A DNA stretch of 64,000 bases. Origin: Chitinispirillum alkaliphilum (lineage in GTDB: Bacteria > Fibrobacterota > Chitinivibrionia > Chitinivibrionales > Chitinispirillaceae). This document shows positions 14,714 through 53,753 of the stretch, in pieces. Where the stretch lies: NCBI GenBank assembly GCA_001045525.1, contig LDWW01000008.1:1-64000 (forward strand), written 5' to 3'. The notes beneath the pieces are model-generated. The model saw nothing but the letters and a program-made list of their open reading frames with translations. It had not been told where the DNA came from and did no database searches. How positions within the stretch are numbered: position 1 is the first letter of the stretch; the number at the start of each line of letters is the position of its first letter. The translations under genes and the position numbers were made by a program.

Positions 14714-15718
14714 TTACATGGACACTTCTCTAAGAGAGTTACTTCTCAAACGACACTCAGAAACCACCATAGACAACTCGCTGCAATCGGGTAAAAAGCC
14801 AAGTACCCACTCCAGTCTTTCCAATGCAACCGGTATAAAGCGTTGGTAATGGGTTTTATTCTTGTGAACAGTGAGATTTCCATACGCTCCAAGAGCCTGC
14901 ATCAGCCGTTGCGCACAACAAATCCAAAAAGCCCTTTGGGTCATGGAGTTTAAAGAGTACCGGTCTTTGTAATATTCAAAAAGTTGCTTACTCACGGATG
15001 TGTCCAGCTCAGAGATATAGGGATCGAACAAAAGTGAAGCAAGATCATACTCCTCGGGACCGAGCCGTGCTCCCTGATAGTCCACAAACCGAATATGGTT
15101 ATTCAAAATGAGAATATTCTCAGATTGAAAATCTCTGTGGATAAGACACTGCTTTAGACTTTTTGCTTCCAGAGCAAGGTTTCTTCTCTGCTGATCCCAT
15201 TTTGGCCCCAAAAGCTGCCCGCAGCCGCAATACTCTCTTACACAGTGATGAGCAAAATAGTCAGTTTCCCAGAGAAAGGTATCGAAATCCATCTCCCTTG
15301 ATTTCACTATTTTCCCCTCAGAGATATCAAGAGAGTTCCATTGGTGAAGAGCATCCAGAACCTGTTTATACATATGTATTATTTTTTCTTTGTTTCCCGC
15401 GTTATCGCTGCAAAACCGCTTAAGCGTCATTGAACCCAAATCTTCTTCAAGAATCAAGCCACAATTCTCATCAGAGTTATATATAGAGGGCAAAAACCTT
15501 GCCCCATCCTTTAACTCTTTACCGATCTCAAGAAATCTGGCCCAATCCTCATCCGCACTGTCCCATACTACCAGAATACAGGATCGGTCATCTTTGGACA
15601 AGCGTACAAAATAACGCTGTGAAGCAGCCTGACCGGCAAGCTCAACGTTCCAGTCTTTGGTATTGAAATTCTCTATTGTGCTTTTAAGAAAATCGATCTG
15701 AACTGGTGTTAATTCCAT
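14714..15718 (-). CDS. amgK: Aminoglycoside-phosphotransferase-fold sugar kinase, AmgK-like
   Basis: The protein has the APH fold with the catalytic loop L-I-H-R-D-F-Q-S-E-N-I-L and the metal-binding F-V-D-Y-Q-G-A-R-L-G-P-x-x-Y-D-L-A-S, the exact arrangement seen in AmgK anomeric MurNAc/GlcNAc kinases. AmgK makes MurNAc-1-phosphate for MurU. Its partner MurU-like gene lies just upstream (27-base gap), and NamZ before that, which strengthens the assignment. The open frame begins at TTG 15739; the ATG at 15718 matches the family's start better (334 residues). A related kinase acting on another sugar is the main alternative. Confidence 0.78.
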   Translation of the reverse strand: MELTPVQIDFLKSTIENFNTKDWNVELAGQAASQRYFVRLSKDDRSCILVVWDSADEDWARFLEIGKELKDGARFLPSIYNSDENCGLILEEDLGSMTLKRFCSDNAGNKEKIIHMYKQVLDALHQWNSLDISEGKIVKSREMDFDTFLWETDYFAHHCVREYCGCGQLLGPKWDQQRRNLALEAKSLKQCLIHRDFQSENILILNNHIRFVDYQGARLGPEEYDLASLLFDPYISELDTSVSKQLFEYYKDRYSLNSMTQRAFWICCAQRLMQALGAYGNLTVHKNKTHYQRFIPVALERLEWVLGFLPDCSELSMVVSECRLRSNSLREVSM

Positions 15719-50073: not shown

Positions 50074-50084
50074 GAGTGGGAAAC

Positions 50085-51293
50085 ATGGCAAAAAAAATAA
50101 TTGTATACCTTTTTATTGTAGCGATATCTGTACAGGCCCGTTCCTATTTAGGACTCAACTACCCGCTTGGCTTGCCTATGGAAGGAACACCGGGGATGTC
50201 AAGATCTATGGGTAACACCGGAACCGGCATCAGAGACATATCCCTTGGTTTGGCTCTTAACCCTGCCAATATGGCTATGCCTAACCAATCAAGCTTTTCA
50301 ACGCTCTATTCTTTGGAAATGAACACTTTCAACGGCAACAGTAAAGAACGTGTACAAAGCTCCCACCCCTCTTTTATCTCCTTTATCATGCCCCTTGGGC
50401 AGCTTGGTAATGTTGGTGTTTCGGTTGACAAAAGAACCGACGGAGAAAGCAGCCACAGAAGTGTAGGATTCTTTGAGGGTACAGAGGATACAATCTACAC
50501 CGGGATAGTCAGAAGCGGTGGTCTTACTGCCTGGCAAGGTGGCTGGGGATATCAGTTCCAAAATGATCTGAGTATTGGTGTAACCTACGAACGTTTTTTC
50601 TACAACATGAAAACCGATCGGATTCATGGTTTTGCAGATGGTGATGATAATGTGGGCAGAATCATCAATAGAAATCAGATTTCGTTTCCTGCAAACGGAA
50701 TACGGGGGGGTATACTCTACCCAATCAACAAACTGAGTATTGGTGTCTCCGGGGAGTATATCTTCCCTTCTGAAGGCACTATAGACAGTGAACTGATTTT
50801 GTATGATGGTACAACCAAAAGTGAGAGGGATATTTCGGTGCATCTGCCTCCCTCTGCATCAGTTGGTCTCTCCTACAGGTTCAATCGCCACTGGCTCGCA
50901 GCGGCTGATGTTGGTGTAACACTGTGGGATCGGTACATATCAGATATCGACAACACAGATGATCTGCGCAGGGCATACTCCTTCTCAGCAGGGGCCAATT
51001 ACACACCTGTGCGGGGGCAGATAACCCAAAACTACTGGGAGAGAATACAGTACAGGGCTGGGCTAAATTATTCTCAGATGCCTCTTGAGGGAGCGTCTTC
51101 AAGATCTCTGAGCATGGGGTTAGGCTTGCCTGTCCAGGAAAGCTCGGGGATTCTTGACGTTGTATTTGAAATGGGCAGACGTACAGACGATCACGATGAG
51201 AGGCTTAAAGACTACTCAGAGTCATTTTACAGGATTCATCTTGGTATAAATGGCAGCAGAAAATGGTTTGAACAAAGACGATATACGTACTGA
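50085..51293 (+). CDS. PorV-like outer-membrane barrel protein
   Basis: The protein starts with a signal peptide (A-K-K-I-I-V-Y-L-F-I-V-A-I-S-V-Q-A) then the family's G-M-S-R-S-M-G-N-T-G-T-G and L-N-P-A-N-M-A motifs, followed by amphipathic strands. Similar in style to the gene at 10998-12062 and to 54586-55716. It probably forms a beta-barrel partner of the preceding lipoprotein. ATG at 50085 is preferred to GTG at 50076 (GTGGGAAAC serves as ribosome site). Confidence 0.75.
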   Translation: MAKKIIVYLFIVAISVQARSYLGLNYPLGLPMEGTPGMSRSMGNTGTGIRDISLGLALNPANMAMPNQSSFSTLYSLEMNTFNGNSKERVQSSHPSFISFIMPLGQLGNVGVSVDKRTDGESSHRSVGFFEGTEDTIYTGIVRSGGLTAWQGGWGYQFQNDLSIGVTYERFFYNMKTDRIHGFADGDDNVGRIINRNQISFPANGIRGGILYPINKLSIGVSGEYIFPSEGTIDSELILYDGTTKSERDISVHLPPSASVGLSYRFNRHWLAAADVGVTLWDRYISDIDNTDDLRRAYSFSAGANYTPVRGQITQNYWERIQYRAGLNYSQMPLEGASSRSLSMGLGLPVQESSGILDVVFEMGRRTDDHDERLKDYSESFYRIHLGINGSRKWFEQRRYTY

Positions 51294-51311
51294 CCGGGAT
51301 TATAGGATTTT

Positions 51312-51340
51312 CCGGCAAGCTCAATTTATGGGCCTGCCGG
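51312..51340 (+). other. GC-rich hairpin after the lipoprotein-barrel pair
   Basis: CCGGCA (51312-51317) pairs with TGCCGG (51335-51340) around a 17-base loop that can add a few more pairs. There is no T tract, so it may stabilise the mRNA end or be a weak, factor-assisted terminator. Confidence 0.5.
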
Positions 51341-51390
51341 TCTTGGTCATGTATGATTCACAATTCTATTCCGGACAGTCTTGATATAAC

Positions 51391-51448
51391 ATATATTCCA
51401 TATGCATTAATTGAAGCGACCCTCACTTAATGCCTCTCTGGAATATAT
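51391..51448 (+). promoter_or_regulatory. Two-segment perfect inverted repeat in the DUF4912-GH57 leader
   Basis: ATATATTCCA (51391-51400) is the exact complement of TGGAATATAT (51439-51448), and inside it GCATTAA (51404-51410) pairs with TTAATGC (51427-51433). The two stems (10 and 7 bp) are split by a small internal loop and closed by a 16-base loop. It ends 14 bases before the ATG at 51463, which lacks a clear ribosome site. It may be an RNA switch or a double operator. Confidence 0.55.
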
Positions 51449-51462
51449 AAGACAAGACAGAT

Positions 51463-52137
51463 ATGCACCGCAGAAAAAAAACAGAAAAAATTCTCAGACG
51501 CCTGATACGCAAAAAAGTTGCCCATAGAAACAGTAGCGTTCACACAACCGGCACTCTGTCTTCTTCTGCATACCCGGAAACTCCATCAGGAGTGCAGATT
51601 GACACCAATATTCCTGAATATTACAACGACACATATATCCGGGCAATCCCAAGAGATCCGGAACATGTTTTTGTGTACTGGGAAATAGGTACAGAAACAA
51701 AGAAACTGACTCAGAAATATATGGGTGAAGAGGTAACCAGGGCAAAAGAAACGCTTCGCCTGACTCAGATAAACAGTCTGGATGACATACCGAAGAAAAA
51801 AGTTGTCACAGAAACCAAGATAGAGCGTAAACCTGACAACCGAGTTATCGAAGTACCAAAACCGGGAAAAACATATCAGGTGCAGTTTGGTTTAAAATCA
51901 GCACAAGGGAACTTTTTACCAATCACCAATTCTAAACCATTGCCACTTCCCAGCCGCACTGTATCTGAGCCCCGTCCGGACAGAAAAGAGAAAGTCGACA
52001 CTGAAGCTGTCACGAGACTCTCTTTGGAGGGTATGCCACCAGAAATGGGACTCTCAGAGCAGATAAGTGGACTTAACCTCCCATCCAGCGATAGCCAAAC
52101 AGAAAAATTCAGCGGAAAAACTGAAAGCGGAAAATGA
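51463..52137 (+). CDS. DUF4912-domain protein
   Basis: Residues about 47-160 match DUF4912: Y-I-R-A-I-P-R-D-P-E-H-V-F-V-Y-W-E-I, followed by V-x-F-G-L-K-x-x-x-G-x-F-L-P-I-x-x-S. The N-terminus is very basic and the C-terminal 60 residues are Ser/Pro/Glu-rich and disordered-looking. DUF4912 genes often accompany GH57 branching enzymes in many phyla, as here, and may bind glycan or regulate. Overlaps the GH57 gene by four bases. Confidence 0.82.
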   Translation: MHRRKKTEKILRRLIRKKVAHRNSSVHTTGTLSSSAYPETPSGVQIDTNIPEYYNDTYIRAIPRDPEHVFVYWEIGTETKKLTQKYMGEEVTRAKETLRLTQINSLDDIPKKKVVTETKIERKPDNRVIEVPKPGKTYQVQFGLKSAQGNFLPITNSKPLPLPSRTVSEPRPDRKEKVDTEAVTRLSLEGMPPEMGLSEQISGLNLPSSDSQTEKFSGKTESGK

Positions 52138-53753
52138 GCAAAGAGAAAGAAATTACCTGCGCAACAAAGCCCAATGGGTATTTATGTCTGGTACTTCATG
52201 CTCATCTGCCTTATGTCCGCCATCCTGAAAAAGACTACATAATGGAGGAGAACTGGTTTTATGAAGCGCTAACAGAAACCTATATTCCCCTTCTGCTCAT
52301 GTTCAGAAATCTCCGTGATGACAATGTTCCGTTTAAACTTACAATGTCTCTGACACCTCCCCTTTGCGCAATGATAAATGATGAGCTGTTGCAGGAAAGA
52401 TACAGCAGACATCTAAGGAAACTTATATCACTGGCGAAAAAGGAGATCATACGAACCAGGGACGACCCTCAATTAAATCAGATAGCTGAGTTTTATCTCG
52501 ACAAATTCAATCTTACCTACCATCTTTATGAGAATAGATTCGGGAGAAACTTGCTAAAGGAGTTCAGAGAAGCGCAGGAGCTTGGTTTCCTGGAAACTAT
52601 CACTTGTGCAGCAACTCACGGCTATCTGCCCAATATGCAGTTTAACGTAAATGCAGTACGGGCACAGATAAGGTTAGGAGTTGAGTCACACACTCAAAAT
52701 CTGGGCACAGCTCCCAAAGGGATCTGGTTGCCGGAGTGTGGTTACTACCCGGGTCTGGAGGAGATCCTTCACCAAGAGGGTTTGGGCTTTTTCTTTATGG
52801 AGACCCATGGTTTACTTCTTGGTAAACCGCGTCCGAGTTATGGGGTTTTTGCTCCGGTATACTGTAAAGATGCCCCAGTTGCGGCTTTTGGAAGGGATGT
52901 GGAATCCTCCCGTTCAGTTTGGAGTGCGGATCAGGGATACCCCGGGCACCCGTCATACAGGGATTTTTATAAGGATATCGGGTATACCCTTGAAATGGAC
53001 TATATTGCGCCATATATCGATCCTGCCGGTATCAGAATTCAAACAGGAATAAAGTACCACAGGGTAACAGACCGGCAAAGCGAGGAAAAGGAGCCATATA
53101 ACCGCCTGGAGGCACTGCGTACAGCTTCAGAGCACGCGGGAAATTTTATGCACAACAGAGAGCAGCAGATTCTACACCTTAATGAGGTTATGGACCGACC
53201 TCCCATAATCTCCTCACTCTATGATGCGGAGCTTTTCGGTCACTGGTGGTATGAGGGTCCGGAATGGCTCAATTACCTTTTCCGCAAAAGCTGTTTTGAG
53301 CAAAACACCTATCAACTCATAACCCCATCTGAATATCTGAGTCTCTATCCGGAAAACGACACAATAGAGCCATCCTTCTCAAGCTGGGGTGAAGGTGGTT
53401 ACTCTTATGTATGGCTCAACGAAACCAACAGCTGGATATACCGCCATATTCACCGTATGGAGAACAGAATGGTCGAGAGTGCGAGAAAGTTTGCAGGTGC
53501 CAGTGGTATGGAACGACGCATACTGAACCAAATGGCACGGGAACTGCTTCTTTCTCAGAGTAGTGACTGGGCGTTTATCATGAAAACAGGGACCATGGTA
53601 GAGTATGCCATTCGCAGAACAAAGGAGCACATTTCAAATTTTCTCAAACTATACGATCTTCTGAACAAAGAAAGTAGAGACGTGGCGTTTTTGTCCCTTG
53701 TGGAATCAAGGAACAATATTTTTCCCGATATAGACTTTACAATTTACTGCTGA
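52134..53753 (+). CDS. GH57-family (DUF1957-type) 1,4-alpha-glucan branching enzyme
   Basis: The first residues show L-V-L-H-A-H-L-P-Y-V-R-H-P. The catalytic nucleophile is E201 in W-L-P-E-C-G-Y and the acid/base is D364 in S-L-Y-D-A-E-L-F-G-H-W-W-Y-E-G, both intact. A DUF1957-type helical C-terminal part ends at residue 539. The enzyme introduces alpha-1,6 branches into glycogen-like glucans in the cytoplasm. Coupled at ATGA to the DUF4912 gene. Confidence 0.93.
   Translation: MSKEKEITCATKPNGYLCLVLHAHLPYVRHPEKDYIMEENWFYEALTETYIPLLLMFRNLRDDNVPFKLTMSLTPPLCAMINDELLQERYSRHLRKLISLAKKEIIRTRDDPQLNQIAEFYLDKFNLTYHLYENRFGRNLLKEFREAQELGFLETITCAATHGYLPNMQFNVNAVRAQIRLGVESHTQNLGTAPKGIWLPECGYYPGLEEILHQEGLGFFFMETHGLLLGKPRPSYGVFAPVYCKDAPVAAFGRDVESSRSVWSADQGYPGHPSYRDFYKDIGYTLEMDYIAPYIDPAGIRIQTGIKYHRVTDRQSEEKEPYNRLEALRTASEHAGNFMHNREQQILHLNEVMDRPPIISSLYDAELFGHWWYEGPEWLNYLFRKSCFEQNTYQLITPSEYLSLYPENDTIEPSFSSWGEGGYSYVWLNETNSWIYRHIHRMENRMVESARKFAGASGMERRILNQMARELLLSQSSDWAFIMKTGTMVEYAIRRTKEHISNFLKLYDLLNKESRDVAFLSLVESRNNIFPDIDFTIYC

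Follow-up and report, generated by a model that had tools for sequence, protein, structure and literature searches.

The spacer upstream of the DUF4912 gene in the 64,000-nt stretch of DNA analysed here (the window) contains a stem-loop whose fold is not due to chance, and which looks, as judged from sequence, like a real, private hairpin of ordinary kind in one soda-lake bacterium and not like a known or conserved control element. We give about even chances to its being a species-specific RNA stem-loop of the DUF4912-GH57 transcript, located either in a 5' leader of that transcript's own or, as an intercistronic hairpin, behind the gene of an outer-membrane protein. Its core, recovered on the forward strand both by inverted-repeat search and by fold prediction, consists of two nested repeats: the outer arms ATATATTCCA (51391-51400) and TGGAATATAT (51439-51448) are complementary at 10 of 10 positions and the inner arms GCATTAA (51404-51410) and TTAATGC (51427-51433) at 7 of 7, enclosing a loop of 16 nt (51411-51426) in which fold prediction adds three pairs, and 14 nt (51449-51462) separate the hairpin from the ATG at 51463. 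An earlier, sequence-only reading of this DNA, which had reported perfect nested complements of 10 and 7 bp around a 16-base loop ending 14 bases before the start codon, proved exact to the base. A third, outer stem of 6 bp, predicted between GTCTTG (51378-51383, forward strand) and CAAGAC (51453-51458, forward strand), was absent from that description; its right strand occupies positions -10 to -5 relative to the start codon, and the whole predicted stem-loop (51378-51458, forward strand, 81 nt, -22.3 kcal/mol) ends 4 nt before the ATG. Since both main stems are perfect, with all 17 of 17 pairs of the Watson-Crick type, they do not distinguish a function in RNA from one in DNA.

The start region of the operon is placed beside a stable stem, as the same reading had stated: the 100 nt from 51371 to 51470 fold at -23.8 kcal/mol as compared to a shuffle mean of -12.4 (z -4.18), none of 200 shuffles was as low in energy, and separate shuffle sets yielded z values of -4.42 and -4.91. 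Ranking by z was performed among 349 start-proximal stretches, with ORFs of at least 90 aa called mechanically on contig C8 (139,933 nt) and on contig C1 up to position 320,000, together 459,933 nt or about a tenth of the source genome (160 contigs, 4,434,773 bases). The hairpin region came third of the 349 and second of the 185 whose spacer measures 92 nt or more; the two stronger stretches are hairpins of 22 and 13 bp, more GC-rich, which look like terminators of the respective upstream genes. A perfect 10-bp inverted repeat spanning at most 70 nt with a nested 7-bp repeat was detected at two places in C8 and at three in the C1 part, as compared to one in total in ten first-order Markov sequences of C8 size; C8 is generally rich in inverted repeats, with 51 outer repeats versus 4-13 in the Markov sequences. 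On reading, two of the other four nested repeats look terminator-like, and the remaining two belong to a single repeat family.

The hairpin precedes a pair of forward-strand genes identified by ORF and Pfam analysis, namely those for a DUF4912 protein of 224 aa (51463-52137; DUF4912 E 1.6e-19) and a GH57 1,4-alpha-glucan branching enzyme of 539 aa with a BE_C domain (52134-53753); given that the two genes overlap by 4 nt, both would probably be affected together. Upstream, likewise on the forward strand, lies an ORF for an outer-membrane beta-barrel-like protein (50076-51293), whose Pfam match is below the cut-off. It is directly followed by an inverted repeat, CCGGCAAGCTCA / TGGGCCTGCCGG (51312-51340, forward strand, from the inverted-repeat search), which forms a terminator-like stem without a clear T run and is not called by the terminator scan. 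The scan of 51200-51600 found no intrinsic terminator, and the AT-rich stem of the hairpin is followed by AAGACAAGACAG and not by a T run, so the hairpin does not qualify as a canonical terminator for the gene before it. Within 20 nt upstream of the DUF4912 ATG none of AGGA, GGAG or GAGG occurs, in agreement with the earlier description of a start codon lacking a clear ribosome site; such a 4-mer was found for 160 of the 349 ORFs, a count that is likely too low as starts were taken mechanically as the first ATG, GTG or TTG, and its absence here is not unusual. The spacer also contains three very short ATG-started frames (51349-51384, 51402-51410 and 51430-51450, with 11, 2 and 6 codons before the stop), for which no ribosome site was seen by eye; the last of them begins in the inner stem and stops 12 nt before the DUF4912 start.

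Comparison with Rfam gave no match at the gathering threshold in the whole window, which places the hairpin in no Rfam family of riboswitch, leader or thermometer; the four permissive matches in 51250-51600 were all to miRNA or snoRNA models with E of at least 4.2. A second copy was not found in the own genome, where only matches of 14-29 nt (E of at least 0.58) occurred beyond the locus, and the several genome copies that characterize an interspersed palindromic repeat of the REP or MITE type were thus not seen. A covariance model, built on one sequence and therefore liable to miss a strongly diverged homologue, was run with stricter filters on the own genome and 40 relatives, and its sole match was the hairpin itself, hit on both strands as a palindrome should be. 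When 38 sources were searched directly, the model returned the hairpin (both strands) and one match elsewhere in the window (15291-15333, E 4.2), which is single-copy in the genome and was taken as chance.

DUF4912 was sought in 60 genomes, the own genome included, and found in 33; 30 loci were fetched, and the first comparison of starts, with start codons chosen by hand, covered 22 of them, 21 from the family of the window (own included) and one from its order. The eight loci left out of it all lie outside the family: L011 is truncated at a contig end, and L010, L012, L013, L017, L032, L034 and L036 had starts far before the match and were folded later. A protein search of the genome contigs with the DUF4912 query returned no relative; the GH57 query matched (best 80 of 586). 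The gap between the outer-membrane-protein gene and DUF4912 is 12-70 nt in 16 of the 22 loci, as compared to 169 nt in the window, which suggests that this spacer may have lengthened recently; the other five gaps are 572 nt (congener), 211 nt (G006), 164 nt (L018, or 44 nt if the TTG at 1279 is its start), 472 nt (L027) and 374 nt (L033). None of the 28 other DUF4912 start regions folded, the congener's included, has a comparable hairpin: the best z was -2.67 (L023) among the 21 other starts of the first comparison, with 0.37 for the congener and 0.87 for G006, and -2.07 (L032) among the seven starts first left out. Conservation within the genus was judged from one comparison, with a single congener whose GH57 protein is 75% identical, and there the spacers barely align save for the last nucleotides before the ATG, where AAGACAGAT is common to both. 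The sole match of the DNA search at the congener's locus covers 51454-51488, and the start box AAGACAGATATG (51454-51465, forward strand) is letter-for-letter the same at the congener's DUF4912 start. Short DNA matches in other genomes led to 20 fetched loci, three of which were read besides the congener's start region: nothing alike was seen by eye in L047 and L048, and L040 appears to be the beginning of a coding sequence. Across the window, the congener and G006, 23, 12 and 11 of the 23 pairs are standard. The paired percentage of these three rows, 66.7, was reached by 102 of 500 shuffles and their covariation score by 95 of 500, and slid structures were worse (32-52%), as expected when the structure stems from one row. 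The conservation and covariation in relatives by which the sequence-only reading had proposed to check its element were not found as far as the comparison reached: the other DUF4912 starts examined lack the hairpin, the covariance model finds none elsewhere in the genomes searched, and the pair counts do not exceed those of shuffles. In the relatives examined, no structure is kept with compensatory changes that would identify a conserved cis-regulatory RNA of DUF4912-GH57 operons.

The genes around the hairpin are arranged alike in these loci. The order outer-membrane-protein-like, DUF4912, GH57 (50076-53753 in the window) is kept in 22 of 22, an upstream frame with a like C-terminus preceding DUF4912 in each of them, and GH57 follows in 28 of all 30, none having been seen in L010 and L012. 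This arrangement hints at a link between the beta-barrel protein and the branching enzyme. No discussion of such a link was found in those parts of the literature that the DUF4912 search reached, in which the domain is mentioned in cotton callus work and not in the listed papers on GH57 branching-enzyme operons.

A palindrome seen in only one of 41 genomes may also be neutral; it would then have no function and would have arisen in a rapidly changing spacer, either as a by-product of local duplication and inversion or as what remains of a small palindromic insertion. We regard this as a tentative explanation, somewhat less probable than the RNA stem-loop. It would agree with the poor alignment to the congener's spacer outside the last nucleotides before the ATG and with the abundance in the genome of palindromic repeats that belong to another family. 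On either side of 51379-51456 stands the 4-nt direct repeat ACAG, which a small insertion could have left behind; among the 45 edge pairs tried, two had a 4-nt match where about 0.2 were expected by chance, which is only mildly unlikely. On the other hand, no second genome copy supports mobility, and the 17 of 17 perfect pairs mean that the palindrome is either young or maintained.

Two further repeats were observed in the course of these searches. A palindromic interspersed repeat of the same genome is present on contig C8 at 108060-108180 (L173:4060-4180, outside the window) and at no fewer than 39 further places; of 44 candidates 40 were scored, giving at least 40 matches, and in 25 of these the alignment extends over 114 or more of the 121 nt with 94-100% identity. 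The likeness reaches the ends of 240 nt in most of the nine copies read with flanks, and on contig C21 (30754-35302) five copies follow one another in the same direction at intervals of about 1.06-1.12 kb. The family may represent a non-autonomous mobile element or a cassette-like array. The congener's spacer from the outer-membrane-protein gene to DUF4912 (L091, about 2040-2143) likewise contains a repeat, with at least 12 congener matches including its own (12 of 71 candidates scored), four partial matches in the genome of the window and one in G016 (E up to 0.001), and no overlapping Rfam match at E up to 1.

Concerning transcription, a sigma-70 promoter scan of 51200-51600 yielded no promoter that reached the threshold, and a 5' leader is thus not established. 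The hexamer TATAAC (51385-51390) matches a promoter element at five of six positions, without a good -35, and the -35/-10 statistics gathered over 185 spacers had too little strength to locate a promoter. A promoter drawn from TATAACRTATATTC, which is common to the window and G006, was rejected, with 51 genome places at up to two mismatches versus 126 for its backwards control. Two nested inverted repeats at a position where TATAAC could mark a promoter might also serve as a paired DNA operator at which a transcription factor would control the operon, an explanation we consider improbable: the scan gave no promoter of the sigma-70 type, none of the relatives examined has kept the site, and its arms are separated by 38 and 16 nt, as opposed to closely spaced half-sites. 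A distance of 38 nt between arms is an odd geometry for an operator. Moreover, ATTCCA followed by TGGAAT within 60 nt occurs at seven places in the 459,933 nt, and the longer pair ATATTCCA/TGGAATAT was found within 60 nt only here in this tenth or so of the genome. The suggestion, made from the letters of the sequence, that a regulator of glycogen metabolism has its double operator here finds no support in this non-recurrence and spacing, and Pfam showed no DNA-binding regulator, which could be encoded elsewhere, among the 12 neighbourhood proteins scanned.

The same early suggestion had named a translation-control element as the other option, and of this a part stands. The predicted unpaired probability of positions -10 to -5 is 0.01-0.03 for transcript starts at 51341-51378 and 0.81-0.85 for starts at 51385-51404, and with a start from 51397 onwards little of the 10-bp stem is left in the fold prediction; control is thus physically possible in that the fold masks -10 to -5 if the transcript starts at or before 51378. 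The other part is not supported, as the element is not conserved in the relatives examined and its deletion in silico leaves the ATG paired to nearly the same degree, an argument against strong gating: the ATG is unpaired at 0.45 with the hairpin deleted versus 0.48 with it kept (start 51372) and at 0.01 versus 0.02 (start 51341), and -10 to -5 opens to about 0.6 only. That the hairpin might be a genus-level translation gate, the basal stem masking the conserved AAGACAGATATG start box, appears more doubtful still than the operator, and we hold it just as doubtful that TCTTA in the congener versus TCTTG in the window would be one compensating change in a hairpin otherwise different. In both predicted folds the start box pairs with an upstream TCTTR, in these two forms. 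When the -10 to -6 box was left unchanged and the sequence before it shuffled, pairing of the window's box as strong as that observed arose in only 3 of 300 shuffles; for the congener 96 of 300 were as good or better, and its pairing is therefore not evidence. Least probable of all, in our estimate, is an alternative-pairing switch in which the right-arm segment 51434-51445 would pair with 51367-51378 in place of the 10-bp stem. The two segments of 12 nt are 83% complementary, but the alternative fold costs 5.7 kcal/mol (-18.5 vs -24.2), no terminator or SD element was seen that could be controlled, and there is no conservation.

Returning to the species-specific RNA stem-loop, we propose that the hairpin would be transcribed into the mRNA entering the DUF4912-GH57 pair, would form in the cell and would act in cis, either by protecting the mRNA or by setting the openness of the start region. 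A transcript starting at or before 51378 would have its outer stem mask -10 to -5, and one starting at 51385 or 51391 would leave the box open, with the hairpin free-standing before the start. We commit ourselves to a modest effect of such a cis-acting stem-loop, with a neutral palindrome close behind as the alternative reading. Should the hairpin have a function, a glycogen-branching operon of the little-studied class Chitinispirillia would possess a leader structure acting in cis, within a spacer that seems to have expanded between the gene pair and the neighbouring outer-membrane-protein gene. For the present, the main lesson of the case is that conserved regulation need not follow from a perfect nested inverted repeat found in a single genome.

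The classic example of a 5'-UTR stem-loop with stabilising function is that of ompA of E. coli, a type in which the stem stands at the transcript 5' end or close to it and prolongs mRNA half-life. Stem-loops stabilising single mRNAs are also documented for recA of Acinetobacter and vacA of Helicobacter (PMC7509114). The hairpin described here differs from them in that no SD sequence lies between stem and start and in being known from the predicted fold alone, whereas it shares with them a stable stem-loop upstream of the start codon, and by this analogy a cis effect on mRNA half-life is plausible. Hairpins within operons give operon parts different stability. In the puf operon of Rhodobacter capsulatus, hairpins in the operon mRNA are described as preventing cleavage (PMC7509114). 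Although here co-transcription with the upstream gene is only putative and most relatives have a shorter spacer, the arrangement is alike: a hairpin between two genes of the same direction which in relatives stand close together.
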